Source: a virus. Taken from it: 64,000 nucleotides of DNA. Location of the stretch: IMG/VR virus record IMGVR_UViG_3300044833_000182, positions 1 to 64,000 of that record. One strand, 5' to 3'. Each line of letters begins with the position of its first letter. The stretch's first letter is position 1. Position numbers and translations under genes: made by a program. Positions 1 to 10,525 of the stretch are shown here, piece by piece. A model generated the notes under the pieces. It saw only the letters and a list, made by a program, of their open reading frames with translations. It was not told the DNA's origin and made no database searches.

Positions 1-1
1 T

Positions 2-424
2 GGAATCCGGGGGACGTGGGACAGTAGCGAGCAGAGGCTCCCTTTCGACGCGGTCGCCGTGAATGCGGGAGAGTCGCCGACCTTGACACGCTGGCCGGAC
101 GGGAAAACCTCGAAGGAGCGGTTTGTCAACCTGCGGGCGGAGATGTGGTGGACGTTGCGGGCTCGGTTCGAGCGGACGTGGGAGCATGTGAACGATCTTG
201 CCGTTCACCCGCTTGAAGACTTGATATCGATACCGAACCATCCGCAGTTGATTGCGGAGCTGTCGCTGCCGTTGTACCACCGCAAGGACAACGGCAAGGT
301 GCAGGTCGAGAGCAAGAAGGCCATGCGAGAGCGAGGCATAAAGAGCCCGGACTTCGCCGACGCGCTCTGTCTGGCGTTCTGTCCCGTTGTACGCCGGGAA
401 GCAATGGCGGCGATGTTGAGCTGA
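2..424 (+). CDS. Terminase large subunit, C-terminal part (cut by window edge)
   Basis: The reading frame is open from the first bases of the window and ends at 424, so the N-terminal ATPase half is missing. What remains looks like the RNase H-like nuclease half of a large terminase, the motor that cuts and packages phage DNA. Supporting features are the segment KTSKERFVNLRAEMWW, a helix-rich stretch, and a C-terminal KSPDFADALCLAF, in which the Asp of SPDFADA fits the last acidic metal ligand of these nucleases. A portal gene follows within 430 bp, the usual terminase-portal order. Internal GTG at 59 is not a likely true start. Confidence 0.85.
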   Translation, partial: GIRGTWDSSEQRLPFDAVAVNAGESPTLTRWPDGKTSKERFVNLRAEMWWTLRARFERTWEHVNDLAVHPLEDLISIPNHPQLIAELSLPLYHRKDNGKVQVESKKAMRERGIKSPDFADALCLAFCPVVRREAMAAMLS

Positions 425-5145: not shown

Positions 5146-8100
5146 ATGACCCAGCTCCTGACCCGACCCGTGCGCCGCCGCCCGCTGGAGCCTGACGCTC
5201 TGGCGCTGCTGGCCGCGCGCGGATCAAATCAAGGAGACGGGTACTCTTACAAAATCGCTCCCGACGCCTACGCTCTCGACGCTCCCGCGTCGACAGAAGA
5301 TCCGGAGTTCAACGACCGCAGGCAAAGCATCACCTTCCCATTCGCTGCCAGTTTAGGGCGCGATCGCGTGGGCGATTGGCTGGACGTGGAGGGGATCGAC
5401 ACCCGGGCGCATCGTTTGTACCCAGTGGCGGCGCTCGACCATTTCAAATGGATGCGCTGGCCTTTGGGATTGACAGAAGATCCCGATAGTAGAGAATACA
5501 GGGTATGGATTGACGAAGACGCTGGCCTGGCGTGGTGCGAGGTCTTCATCAATTCACACGTCAAGGAGGCAGAGCAGGCTTTCAAGATGTTCCGCTCCAA
5601 GATATTGCGGGCGGGAAGCATCGGGTACAGGCCGCTTCGCGTGTCCAAACTCCCGGCCGATCCAGAGCAAGGGCAGTTGAAGCCGGGACTGACGCTGCAC
5701 GAGGTTGAACTCCTCGAAACAACGCTCGCCGTGTTACCCGCAAACGGCGATGCCGTCAGACGCTGCCTCATGGACGGCATCGAGGGCGAACCCCTCGCTG
5801 CGGGGTTCAAGTCGCTCCTCGCGCCTTTTGCAAGCGCCGCCCCGGAGATGGTTGTCGGCGGCTGGCAAACCAAGGACACGGCCCACAAACCAGCCGGCTC
5901 CTCCGAGGGCGGACAGTTCACCAGCGGCGGAGGGGGCGGCGCAGCGGCAACCACCGGCGCGCAGGCCAAGAAGAAGGAGAAACGCCGCGGCAGCGGCGGC
6001 ACATCAGCCCCCGCGCCTCGCCCGTCGCTCGCCCGTCGCGTAACGAGCGCCCTTGCCCGGCACGCCTCCACCATCGTCAAGGCGGGCCTGGGCGTCCCGA
6101 AGGAGAAACTCGCGGCCCTCTACCTGCACGTCCCGGAGTCGATGCGCGCCCCCGTGGGGAACCTCTGGCACGCAACGCACGCCGTGCTGATGTCCGCGAA
6201 CGCGGCAACGCAGGCGCTGGCCAAGCGGGTGATGGAAGACAAGGGCCTCGACGAGGCGGCAGTAACGAAGCTGGCGTGGCAGTTGGGCGCGGTGGACCTG
6301 GCGTTCCAGGGAACCATGATGGCAACGGCCATTGCGGCCGCCCCCGTGGCCCACGGCCTCGCGCTGGCGGCCAAGGCGGCGAGCTACTGCCCGGTGGCGA
6401 GCGCGGCCTACATCCTCCATGCCAGCGCGTCGCCGGGCAAGGCGATGAAGACGATCAAGAGCGCCTACGCTCTGCTCAAGGAGAAGTTCCTCGACCAGAT
6501 GCGCGGCAGCGCCGCCTTTGCCTGGGGTGCGGTGCGGAACCCGCTCACGTCGGCCGTCACCGTGGGCGCCGGCCACAAGACGGCGGGCGATTGGACGGAC
6601 GAGGGGGCGGCGCTGATCGCGGACGCCTACGCGGCGGCGGCGAACCCGGATATGTGGCTGGCGCTGTTCTCCGCGGCGTTCGACGACGTACGCGACGTGG
6701 CGGAAGCGGTGGAGATGGCGAACGCCTGCGCGGGAGAGGGCGGCTCACTGTCGGGTTCCGACAGTGAGAAGACGTTCCCCGGCAAGGCGGCGGACGGCGA
6801 GGTACACCGCTTTGCCTCGACGCAATTCGATCTTCCCGAGCCGATCCGTTCGCGCGTGCTGGAGCTGGCAGCGAAGATTCCCGACGAGGATCTCGCAGAG
6901 GATGGTCGCGAAGAACGCCCCCACATTACCGCACGCTTCGGGTTGCACGGGGATGACGGCGAGGACGGGGCGGCTGCTGTGCGCGGCGTTGTCGGCGGGT
7001 TCGGCCCGGTCAAGATCCGGCTTGGCGGTAAGTCGATCTTTGCCGGGGACGATTTCGACGTGGTGAAACTGGACGTGGAAGGCGACGATTTGCACCGTCT
7101 GCACGATGCGCTCGGCGACCTGAATCACATCGACACGCACCCGAAGTATCAGCCACACTGTACTTTGGCCTATGTCAAGCCGGGCATGGGCAAGAAGTAC
7201 ATCGGGAAGAGCGGGTTGGAGGGAGAGGAGGTTACTCTCGACAAGCTGGTGTACAGCGACCGCGAGCGGAACGAGACGGAGATTTTGCTGAAGGCCGACG
7301 GCAAGTCCTTCACCCCCTCCACCAAGGACGCCGTTGCCCCCTCGATGTCCGCGGGCGACATGACCACGGGCGGCGCGTTCATCGGCCCGGCGTCCTTCGG
7401 CAGGGGGATTACGCTTCATCGGGGCCGTCCCGCGATCCTGAAGCGCATCCGGCGGAAGAAACCGGGGCTTGCGGTGGGTAAGACGTTCGAGCCGGACGGC
7501 AAGACGGAGACGGCGCACAAACCCGCAGGCAGTCCCGAGGGCGGGCAGTTCACGACGGGAAGCGGAGGAGGCAGTAGCGCGGCTGGCGACGGTGGGAAGA
7601 AGCCGAAGAAGGCCGCGGCGAGCAAGGCGGAACCCGCCCCTCACCCCGGCAGCGTCCACGGCTCGGCCGTGACCGTCAAGCCGAGCAAGGAACGCGCCTG
7701 GGACGGCAAGCCGGCGCCGCTGAAGACGGCGCTCACAAAACAAGAGACTGGACAGGTGGGAGAAGCGGTGGCGCTGGCGTACCTCAAGAGCGTGATGGGC
7801 GCCGCCGACGCCCGGCCGCTGAATCTGGAGATGCCCAACGCGCCCATCGACTTGATCGAGGATCACGCGCCCACAGAAGTCAAGGCTGGACTCGCCGGGA
7901 ACAGCAAGAAAGCCCAGCAATGGCGACTGACGTTCTCCAAGGAGAGCGCGAAGGAAAAGGCGCTGTACGAGACGATGAGCAAGGAGGAGCGGGCGGCGTG
8001 GAACGCTCAGAAGCAGAAGCGCATCAAGGAACGAAAGGACGCGATGGTCAAGGTTCTGGAGAAGCGCACTGGGGGAAAGGTTAAGCCGCGTACACTCACC

Positions 8101-8226
8101 CTGATTGTTAACCCCGACACAAGGACAGCCGACGTGTACCTGTTTGACGGGCTTCATGACAGAATCGGGTGGGCGGGGCCGGAAACTGAAAAAGCCTATC
8201 GCGGATCGGTGAAGTACGATGGATGA
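5146..8226 (+). CDS. Prohead protease polyprotein with 2H phosphoesterase and nuclease-like domains
   Basis: A 1026-residue multidomain protein. Residues about 25-215 resemble an HK97-type (S78) prohead protease, with candidate His in LDHFKWMRWP (about 97) and Ser in AGSIGYRPL (about 158), then ELLETTLAVLPAN. The linker motif HKPAGSSEGGQFT (about 247) is followed by a helical Ala-rich region (290-535). Residues 555-700 resemble a 2H phosphoesterase with HITARF (593) and HCTLAYV (671). Residues 732-755 copy the capsid N-arm (PSMSAGDMTTGGAFIGP). A second HKPAGSPEGGQFT (791) precedes a PD-(D/E)xK-like domain with Glu in GEAVALAYL, Asp in PIDLIE and TEVKAG (871-910). The protease call is fairly firm; the other domains are motif-based. 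ATG 5146 chosen over an upstream TTG. Confidence 0.75.
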   Translation: MTQLLTRPVRRRPLEPDALALLAARGSNQGDGYSYKIAPDAYALDAPASTEDPEFNDRRQSITFPFAASLGRDRVGDWLDVEGIDTRAHRLYPVAALDHFKWMRWPLGLTEDPDSREYRVWIDEDAGLAWCEVFINSHVKEAEQAFKMFRSKILRAGSIGYRPLRVSKLPADPEQGQLKPGLTLHEVELLETTLAVLPANGDAVRRCLMDGIEGEPLAAGFKSLLAPFASAAPEMVVGGWQTKDTAHKPAGSSEGGQFTSGGGGGAAATTGAQAKKKEKRRGSGGTSAPAPRPSLARRVTSALARHASTIVKAGLGVPKEKLAALYLHVPESMRAPVGNLWHATHAVLMSANAATQALAKRVMEDKGLDEAAVTKLAWQLGAVDLAFQGTMMATAIAAAPVAHGLALAAKAASYCPVASAAYILHASASPGKAMKTIKSAYALLKEKFLDQMRGSAAFAWGAVRNPLTSAVTVGAGHKTAGDWTDEGAALIADAYAAAANPDMWLALFSAAFDDVRDVAEAVEMANACAGEGGSLSGSDSEKTFPGKAADGEVHRFASTQFDLPEPIRSRVLELAAKIPDEDLAEDGREERPHITARFGLHGDDGEDGAAAVRGVVGGFGPVKIRLGGKSIFAGDDFDVVKLDVEGDDLHRLHDALGDLNHIDTHPKYQPHCTLAYVKPGMGKKYIGKSGLEGEEVTLDKLVYSDRERNETEILLKADGKSFTPSTKDAVAPSMSAGDMTTGGAFIGPASFGRGITLHRGRPAILKRIRRKKPGLAVGKTFEPDGKTETAHKPAGSPEGGQFTTGSGGGSSAAGDGGKKPKKAAASKAEPAPHPGSVHGSAVTVKPSKERAWDGKPAPLKTALTKQETGQVGEAVALAYLKSVMGAADARPLNLEMPNAPIDLIEDHAPTEVKAGLAGNSKKAQQWRLTFSKESAKEKALYETMSKEERAAWNAQKQKRIKERKDAMVKVLEKRTGGKVKPRTLTLIVNPDTRTADVYLFDGLHDRIGWAGPETEKAYRGSVKYDG

Positions 8227-8350
8227 GAAGCTGAAGGCGGAAGTGGAAGACGAGTTTGACGCCTGGCTCGACGAGTACATCGAGAAGTGGGGCGCTGCCG
8301 TCGAGGCGCACCTTGAAGAGATCGACGGGAAGGAGGGCAAGGAACAATGA
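8219..8350 (+). CDS. 43-residue very acidic protein, coupled to the polyprotein
   Basis: Starts 8 bases before the polyprotein stop and ends in an ATGA overlap with the next gene. About 16 of 43 residues are Asp or Glu (MDEKLKAEVEDEFDAWLDEY). Being tightly coupled behind a nuclease-like C-terminal domain, it could be a small inhibitor or a chaperone for that domain, or just an acidic scaffold piece. This is inference; no family is recognised. Confidence 0.5.
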   Translation: MDEKLKAEVEDEFDAWLDEYIEKWGAAVEAHLEEIDGKEGKEQ

Positions 8351-9051
8351 CCGCCGCCGTTGCCGCACCCGAGACCAAGGCCCTCGCCGACGTGTTCAAG
8401 CCGTACCCGTACGACGACGAGCGCATCCCGCACATGGCGCAGTGCCTGGGCAACCTGTACGGCTGCCTTGAACAGTTCGCCTACCACGCCCGGTACATGC
8501 GGCAGTCCGGCGAGAACACGGATGTTCTTGCGTGGCTCGATTCCATCGACCCAGACGCGGAGGCGCTGGCCCGCAAGATTGCCGAGAAGTTCGCCGCAGC
8601 CTACCCCGACCTGGAGCCGCTGCTAAAAGAAGAGATCAATGGCAAAGACTTCAGTCCGTTCACCAAGGTAGTCGCCCTGAAGGAGGAAAAGACCATGCCG
8701 GAGCCTGTGATCCCGCCGGAGCCCAAGCCGCCGGAGAAGCGCGAGGAACCGCCCGAGAAGAAGGAGGAAACCAAGCGCCTTGCCTCCTACCACAAGAAGG
8801 CCATCGAGGGGGCGGCCGACCACCTCGACAAGCTGTCCAGTCATGACGGGCTGGAGGACGAGCACCAGAAGATGTGCTACCACCATGCCAAGGCGCTGGA
8901 GGGCGTGCTGGAGGATGACGAGGAGGGGCGTGGGGAGAAGGACGACGAGGAGATGACGCCGGAGGAAAAGAGCCTGATGCAGAAGGTGCTCGCCAAGCAG
9001 CAGCGTGAGATCGAGGACAACAACAAGATCCTGCAATCGCAGGGCAAGTAA
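8347..9051 (+). CDS. Probable scaffolding-type protein
   Basis: 234 residues, located directly before the major capsid gene, where scaffolds normally lie. The N-terminal 110 residues are globular and include HMAQCLGNLYGCLEQFAYH. Residues 110-150 are a Pro/Glu/Lys hinge (PEPKPPEKREEPPEKKEET). The rest is a highly charged helical or coiled-coil region (HLDKLSSHDGLEDEHQK; EKSLMQKVLAKQQREIEDN). Charged coiled-coil composition and position suggest scaffold; no sequence family was recognised. Translation coupled by ATGA to the 43-residue gene. Confidence 0.5.
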   Translation: MTAAVAAPETKALADVFKPYPYDDERIPHMAQCLGNLYGCLEQFAYHARYMRQSGENTDVLAWLDSIDPDAEALARKIAEKFAAAYPDLEPLLKEEINGKDFSPFTKVVALKEEKTMPEPVIPPEPKPPEKREEPPEKKEETKRLASYHKKAIEGAADHLDKLSSHDGLEDEHQKMCYHHAKALEGVLEDDEEGRGEKDDEEMTPEEKSLMQKVLAKQQREIEDNNKILQSQGK

Positions 9052-9121: not shown

Positions 9122-10525
9122 ATGCCAGGACTCATGGATCAGTTGACGGAGAACAACCGCAAGCTGGACGAACAGCGTGCGTTGATTCAGCAGGGGCGCG
9201 CCGCGCGCCACACCGGAGCGGTCCCCGACCGCGCGCCGCGCGCCCGCCGCGGCGAGAACATCATGTCCAGCCGGGGGTTTCAGATCGGCAAGGTGATCGG
9301 CGTCGTCGGCAAGAACGCCAAGATGCGTCGCGACGAAGCGAAGATCGAACTGGAATTCTGTGACCGGCTGAACAACCAGATGGCCGCGCAGGGCTGGCGC
9401 GGCGAGCACCCCGACGGCGTCCTCATTCCCATCTGGCCCGACGGCTTCGACGAGAAATCCCTCGACACGGCGACCTGGAAGGAGATGAAGGACCTCCTCT
9501 ATGCGGGCGTCGATGGGGCCGACGAAGGGGAGATGCAGTGGCTGCGCGGCCAGTACGGTCAGAAGGCCGCTATCTCTCCGTCGATGTCCTGGAACGACCA
9601 GACCACCGGCGGCAGCTTTGTTGGCCCGCCCACGTTCGGGCCGCCCATCGAACTCCTGCGGGCGAAAGAGGCCATGCTCCAGGCGGGGGCTTCCCTCGTC
9701 CCTCTGGGGCCGACGGGTTCGCTGGCCATGCCACGCCTCGCGGCCGCGACCACGGGCGGATGGATCGGCGAGAATACGCAGGCAAGCGCGACCCCGCCGA
9801 AGACCGGCTCGCTGCTCCTCCGCGCGAAGAAGGCGTTCGGCATCGTCGCGTTCGCGGCCGAATTCCTCCGCTTCGGTTCGCCCGCGGCCGAAATGATCGT
9901 CCGCAACGACCTCATGCTGACCGTGTCGCTCGTCGCCGATAAGGGTCTGCTCGACGGTCCCGGCTCGGACAACGTCCCCCTGGGTCTCGCCACGATGGGC
10001 GCCGCCGCGGGCAACCCCTACGGCATCACCATCGTCACGCCGGCCAACGCCAACCAGCTTGCCCCGCAGGACGTGTACAAGTTTATCAGCGGCATCGAGG
10101 AAGCCAATGGGACCATGACGGCGTGGATCATGCGCCCCTCCATGTGCTGGTCGATCTACGGCGCCCGCTGGACGCCCTACTCCGGCGGCACGTCTCAGGG
10201 CGGCTTCATGTTCGAACTGATGCGCGGCATGGGCGACGAGATGGACGCCTACCTGTCCGGCCACAAGGTCGTCCGCAGCACGCAGGTCAGCAACAACCGC
10301 GGCGTGACCGATCACTCGCGGACCTACATCCTCGGTCTGAACGGCCCCAACTACCTGATGGGCGTCTTCGGTGCAATCGAGGTGATGACCACCGCCGAGG
10401 GATGGAACCTCGTCAGTTCGGACCAGGTAGCCGTGAGGGCGCTGATGCACGTCGATGGGGGCATGCGCAACAACGCCGAGTGTGCTTTCATGGACCTGAT
10501 CAACCCTGCCGTCGTGGCTGGTTGA
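9122..10525 (+). CDS. Major capsid protein (HK97 fold)
   Basis: 467 residues starting at ATG 9122. Residues 1-150 are charged and helical, as in a removable delta-type domain. At about 153 the pattern PSMSWNDQTTGGSFVGPP then GPPIELLRAKEAMLQAG matches the N-arm of HK97-type capsids (T-x-G-G-x-x-V-P-x..L-L-R..). It is followed by LGPTGSLAMPRL, W-I-G-E-N, KAFGIVAFAAEFLRFG and a C-terminal beta-rich P/A domain including NAECAFMDL. This is the shell protein, presumably cut by the neighbouring protease before or near residue 153. Followed by a strong hairpin at 10545. Confidence 0.9.
   Translation: MPGLMDQLTENNRKLDEQRALIQQGRAARHTGAVPDRAPRARRGENIMSSRGFQIGKVIGVVGKNAKMRRDEAKIELEFCDRLNNQMAAQGWRGEHPDGVLIPIWPDGFDEKSLDTATWKEMKDLLYAGVDGADEGEMQWLRGQYGQKAAISPSMSWNDQTTGGSFVGPPTFGPPIELLRAKEAMLQAGASLVPLGPTGSLAMPRLAAATTGGWIGENTQASATPPKTGSLLLRAKKAFGIVAFAAEFLRFGSPAAEMIVRNDLMLTVSLVADKGLLDGPGSDNVPLGLATMGAAAGNPYGITIVTPANANQLAPQDVYKFISGIEEANGTMTAWIMRPSMCWSIYGARWTPYSGGTSQGGFMFELMRGMGDEMDAYLSGHKVVRSTQVSNNRGVTDHSRTYILGLNGPNYLMGVFGAIEVMTTAEGWNLVSSDQVAVRALMHVDGGMRNNAECAFMDLINPAVVAG

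Follow-up and report, generated by a model that had tools for sequence, protein, structure and literature searches.

A copy of the capsid N-arm in a phage protease polyprotein

In the genome of an uncultured bacterial virus (IMG/VR record IMGVR_UViG_3300044833_000182; 96,108 bases), we identified a polyprotein, protease-like in its N-terminal part, in which, judging from sequence comparison, a capsid N-arm of the phage's own type truly occurs a second time, located between two cargo parts. The copy might function as a protease-processing linker between these parts, a reading that we put forward tentatively, and it is about equally likely that the copy is an inert relic of a capsid gene.

The window analyzed here, the 64,000 nucleotides at the start of this record, has a G+C content of 64%. 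A terminal repeat of about 128 bases (window positions 1-128 correspond to contig positions 95,981-96,108), together with the TerL gene that spans the join, indicates that the genome is probably complete and either circular or circularly permuted, although no end-repeat flag was seen on the record. With regard to the possible host, a protein encoded in a phage contig (L024:9832-10710, + strand) contains a c-type-cytochrome-like CAACH motif and resembles proteins common in Planctomycetota, which may hint at a host in this group.

The first-pass annotation pointed to a motif shared by the polyprotein and the major capsid protein, and its coordinates and residues hold: PSMSAGDMTTGGAFIGPASFG starts at position 7339 (+) within the open frame 5146-8226, and PSMSWNDQTTGGSFVGPPTFG starts at 9578 (+) within the capsid gene 9122-10525. 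The length given there does not hold: at 40 residues, the block is roughly double the stated size. The full ungapped match begins with a lysine (7324 in the polyprotein and 9563 in the capsid gene; KDAVAPSMSAGDMTTGGAFIGPASFGRGITLHRGRPAILK versus KAAISPSMSWNDQTTGGSFVGPPTFGPPIELLRAKEAMLQ) and encompasses positions 7324-7443 (+; polyprotein residues 727-766) and 9563-9682 (+; capsid residues 148-187). The two copies share 21 identical residues and 29 positives out of 40 (pairwise BLASTP E = 5e-9, or 2e-7 when composition-corrected and run against every ORF in the first 20 kb), which identifies the polyprotein block as a homolog of the N-arm of a Phage_capsid protein. The best local score was 109; in 200 shuffles of the polyprotein, scores averaged 45 and never exceeded 66. 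At the DNA level, the two 60-base halves of the block reach identities of 0.67 and 0.52; the surrounding sequence stays mostly around 0.3, with a sharp drop to background at both edges. The residues retained in both copies are K, PSMS, D, TTGG, F, GP and FG. No third copy was found in the entire 96,108-base contig. In the polyprotein, no HK97 fold comes after the block; instead, the chain goes on with a basic linker and a GGQF motif and ends in an unrelated domain.

The major capsid protein (9122-10525, +; 467 aa) has the HK97 fold (PF05065, E = 1.1e-14; TIGR01554, E = 3e-17). In alignments with HK97 gp5, D3 orf6 and relatives, the block sits where the delta-like N-terminal region meets the fold, with the GG-x-[LF]-V type motif of the capsid family in its middle. 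The HK97 capsid protein is cut between K103 and S104 (PMC10275583), and the mature N-arm of D3 begins near residue 114 (PMC12749128). When HK97 SAGSLIQP is placed on TGGSFVGP, the predicted cut in the capsid protein falls at about residues 154/155, inside PSMS, and the D3 register would give nearly the same position, both registers resting on short motifs. In the HK97 register, N-arm residues 105-130 correspond to about residues 156-181 of the capsid protein, and the copied segment, 148-187, exceeds this span by some 6-8 residues on each side. Thus, the copy comprises the cleavage region plus the N-arm and little else, in agreement with the earlier description of the shared segment as the expected capsid N-arm, here with the cleavage region of the HK97 and D3 capsid proteins included. 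The AlphaFold model of the capsid protein was unusable (pLDDT 38). Between the protease and capsid genes lies an ORF for a small charged protein (8347-9051, +) that matched no family and, from its position, is possibly scaffold-like.

Domain architecture of the polyprotein

The polyprotein is encoded in a single open frame (5146-8226, +; 1026 aa). Its N-terminal part (5146-5860, +) is a putative prohead protease, as suggested by its position between the portal and capsid genes and by matches below the profile thresholds: Peptidase_S78 (E = 0.004; 17.7 bits, cut-off 21), TIGR01543 (E = 0.006; 16.9 bits, cut-off 59) and phrog_617 (E = 0.003). The candidate catalytic residues, assigned by analogy, are H in DHFKW, S in AGSIGY and E in EVELLE. 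This part, in the same chain as the block, looks intact. It is followed by the motif HKPAGSSEGGQF (5884-5919, +), of a type also present in IMG/VR contigs, by an alanine-rich, probably helical region with no credible profile match (6040-6760, +; approximate limits), and by a 2H phosphoesterase domain (6800-7290, +; approximate limits). The latter, already placed ahead of the block in the first-pass annotation, is recognized by PF13563 (E = 1.9e-9; 38.2 bits, cut-off 27) and contains both HxT motifs, PHIT (6919-6930) and PHCT (7153-7164). Downstream of the block, a second motif read in the sequence, HKPAGSPEGGQF (7516-7551, +), precedes the C-terminal domain (7732-8226, +). No fold was recognized for this domain, which matched nothing in Pfam, NCBIfam, PDB chains or phage records and therefore lends no support to its earlier label as a nuclease-like cargo; the AlphaFold model of the C-terminal part was unusable (pLDDT 44). 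The block is thus placed between the protease and 2H half and the C-terminal half, just ahead of a GGQF motif. The polyprotein probably carries enzymes into the virus head.

The repeated element, HKPAGS-x-EGGQF, occurs once before the helical and 2H part and again before the C-terminal domain. Pattern scans detected motifs of this type, HxPAG-xx(x)-GGQF, in 14 IMG/VR contigs (L004-L017), among them in proteins with portal domains (L004, with a shorter spacer, and L005), with MuF plus an ADP-ribosyltransferase (L006) and with ADP-ribosyltransferases (L007, L011). In these unrelated phage contigs, the motif often lies just ahead of an enzymatic part. Regions resembling GNAT and metallopeptidase domains were also seen, by eye only, in other proteins with this motif. 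A slightly looser pattern was found in none of 199 genomes of one bacterial phylum, and searches of the literature yielded no relevant paper on the motif. Effectors delivered to the head may use the GGQF motif generally, for linking or for targeting, and as a general cargo linker it is more plausible than the N-arm. A motif of this type next to phage enzymatic domains could serve as a handle for finding such effectors.

Age of the copy and relatives of the locus

The synonymous codons of the two copies are nearly saturated (dN 0.44 and dS 1.38 by NG86; 0.46 and 1.73 by LWL85), so the duplication is not recent. A recent event was also ruled out by codon identity: 12 of the 21 shared residues use the same codon, compared with 9.6 expected from codon usage alone. 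The dN/dS ratio of about 0.3, estimated from only 40 codons, indicates that the protein sequence was conserved for at least part of the time since this old duplication; the constraint may date from the period when both copies resided in capsid genes, before the block left. The other capsid proteins retrieved are only about 14-26% identical to that of the window, and therefore the donor of the block was much closer to the phage's own capsid gene than any of them is.

The first-pass annotation called for a search of related phage genomes for the same motif, and our searches turned up no relative that carries it in a cargo protein. Neither a search of viral contigs with the full polyprotein nor a scan with the alignment of the two copies detected a relative of the block. 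The pattern D.TTGG.F.GP retrieved from viral contigs five unrelated proteins that resemble tail tube proteins, and the pattern TTGG.F.GP..FG retrieved from genome contigs one chance match in Nocardiopsis, with no relative of the block in either case. The plasmid search gave nothing. Relatives identified through TerL mostly have other head genes, and the portal alignment search returned the L004 contig and one distant locus only. We also examined 30 capsid genes from 29 further head loci, of which 20 came from bacterial genomes and 9 from phages or phage contigs. In no case was the N-arm copied in another ORF of the locus; one control locus (L125) gave a weak, unrelated and chance-like match in a short ORF (E = 1.8e-4).

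The closest syntenic phage found is the contig IMGVR_UViG_3300047409_000596 (L004, L123), the portal of which contains two GGQF motifs. Its protease ORF (L123:9023-13417, -; 1466 aa) shows similarity to proteases and also encodes an AAA ATPase (PF00004, E = 2e-15); between relatives, this ORF thus seems to provide a slot for variable cargo. Directly behind it are two tandem HK97-fold capsid genes (L123:7450-8907, - and L123:6131-7264, -), the products of which are 36% identical; in the second, the delta-like N-terminal region is mostly missing. Duplication of capsid genes therefore does occur nearby. No copy of either capsid N-arm is present in this protease ORF, nor is the N-arm copied in the protease-fused and portal-fused domains of this relative. 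Further downstream, the genes resemble, by eye, those behind the capsid gene of the window. In another locus (L001), protease and capsid are encoded in one ORF.

Possible roles and origins of the duplicated block

Our leading explanation, put forward tentatively, is that the block is a protease-processing linker. It would derive from an old event in which a close relative of the capsid gene was duplicated or took part in recombination. In the proposed mechanism, the protease part would take the whole fusion into the prohead, in the way that maturation proteases normally enter, and would cut the copy in the PSMS region, as expected for the capsid protein. Such a cut would separate the protease and 2H half from the C-terminal part, which, once freed, would remain in the head and be ejected with the DNA. 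This scenario explains jointly the age of the copy, its restriction to little beyond the N-arm and cut region, and its place between cargo parts. It is supported by the strong match, the sharp edges, the dN/dS value, the intact-looking protease in the same chain, and the location of the block exactly between the two cargo parts, just before the GGQF motif. There is also precedent: the prohead protease of SPN3US (gp245) cuts at motifs that the capsid protein has in common with internal head proteins (PMC10052503), and the T4 protease, according to works cited in the same paper, likewise cuts capsid and internal proteins at a shared motif. The scenario is weakened by the failure to find a relative with this arrangement, by the lack of a copy in the cargo-bearing ORFs of the syntenic relative, by the possibility that the constraint predates departure from the capsid gene, and by the dependence of the register on short motifs. 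Of the original proposal of a cleavage signal, the part concerning the N-arm is borne out by the alignment register, which places the cut region within the shared segment; recurrence in cargo proteins of relatives was looked for and not found. An extended and rather unlikely form of the processing-linker explanation, which overlaps with it, holds that the duplicated N-arm and cleavage site make up a self-processing and retention element, with release at the capsid-like site and attachment of the freed part to the shell through the N-arm.

About equally likely as the processing linker is an inert relic. Behind the protease there could once have been a second capsid gene or, from a related phage, a protease-capsid fusion. 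Illegitimate recombination would then have exchanged the capsid body for the C-terminal domain with its GGQF link, and the N-arm would have stayed behind as a harmless linker. The tandem capsid genes of the syntenic relative and the L001-type fusion are indirect support for the origin by capsid duplication that was raised at the outset, and the closeness of the donor to the window's capsid gene and the absence of N-arm copies in other loci point in the same direction; the position of the block is explained equally well. Against a relic stand the ends of the block, which coincide with the limits of the N-arm and show no fading, and the retention of the conserved residues under apparent constraint, but with 40 codons both arguments are weak.

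Considerably less probable is a docking tag that functions without cleavage, whereby the copied N-arm would bind the capsid lattice and hold the polyprotein inside the shell. The copying of the whole N-arm fits this idea, as does the fact that, after cleavage, the HK97 N-arm takes the former scaffold site on the P-domain (PMC10275583). However, the arm is internal here, and uncut N-arms are disordered in HK97 and D3 (PMC10275583, PMC12749128); furthermore, the protease fusion should by itself bring the cargo into the prohead, so that a docking tag is not needed, and no other cargo protein with such an arm was found. For the same reason, we rejected the N-arm as a general cargo signal in the data at hand: there is a single non-capsid carrier in the contig and none was found in relatives, in contrast to a T4-type signal shared by several cargo proteins. 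Finally, chance or convergence of two glycine- and proline-containing linkers is hardly credible, given 40 ungapped residues, a score that no shuffle approached and the local rise in DNA identity, even though searches of this kind do produce weak chance matches, such as that of the short ORF in the L125 control to the capsid protein of its locus (E = 1.8e-4).

Processing of the block, if it occurs, would illustrate how a prohead protease can deliver and release fused enzymes by means of a piece of the capsid protein, and would help to predict virion enzymes from sequence. The combination of processing and retention, if real, would be a mode of cargo loading not described in the literature searched, where we also found no protease-cargo fusion that contains a copied capsid N-arm. 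If the block is a relic, it is a record of capsid gene duplication and recombination next to the protease ORF's variable cargo slot.

Comparison with known systems

In the maturation of HK97 gp5 and D3 capsids, the prohead protease removes the delta domain and exposes the N-arm, and the block aligns with their cut region and N-arm; the difference is that here the protease ORF contains a second copy, with a non-capsid domain behind it. In T4 and SPN3US, to the extent covered by the account in PMC10052503, a processing motif is common to the protease, capsid and internal proteins, the latter bearing a capsid-targeting sequence in T4. There, this motif is short and usually ends an N-terminal propeptide on separate proteins, whereas here a whole N-arm is embedded in a protease fusion and the cutting is predicted only. 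Polyvalent proteins, in which effector domains including 2H are fused to portal or MuF proteins (PMC5512222), are similarly multi-domain, linked to head genes and endowed with a 2H domain; in the present case, the fusion partner is a protease-like part and the N-arm copy lies between the cargo parts. The fused protease-capsid ORFs, such as that of L001 (PHROG 617 covers both portions), have the same order of protease followed by capsid N-arm in one ORF; in this phage, by contrast, the protease ORF retains just the N-arm, and the complete capsid gene is separate and downstream.
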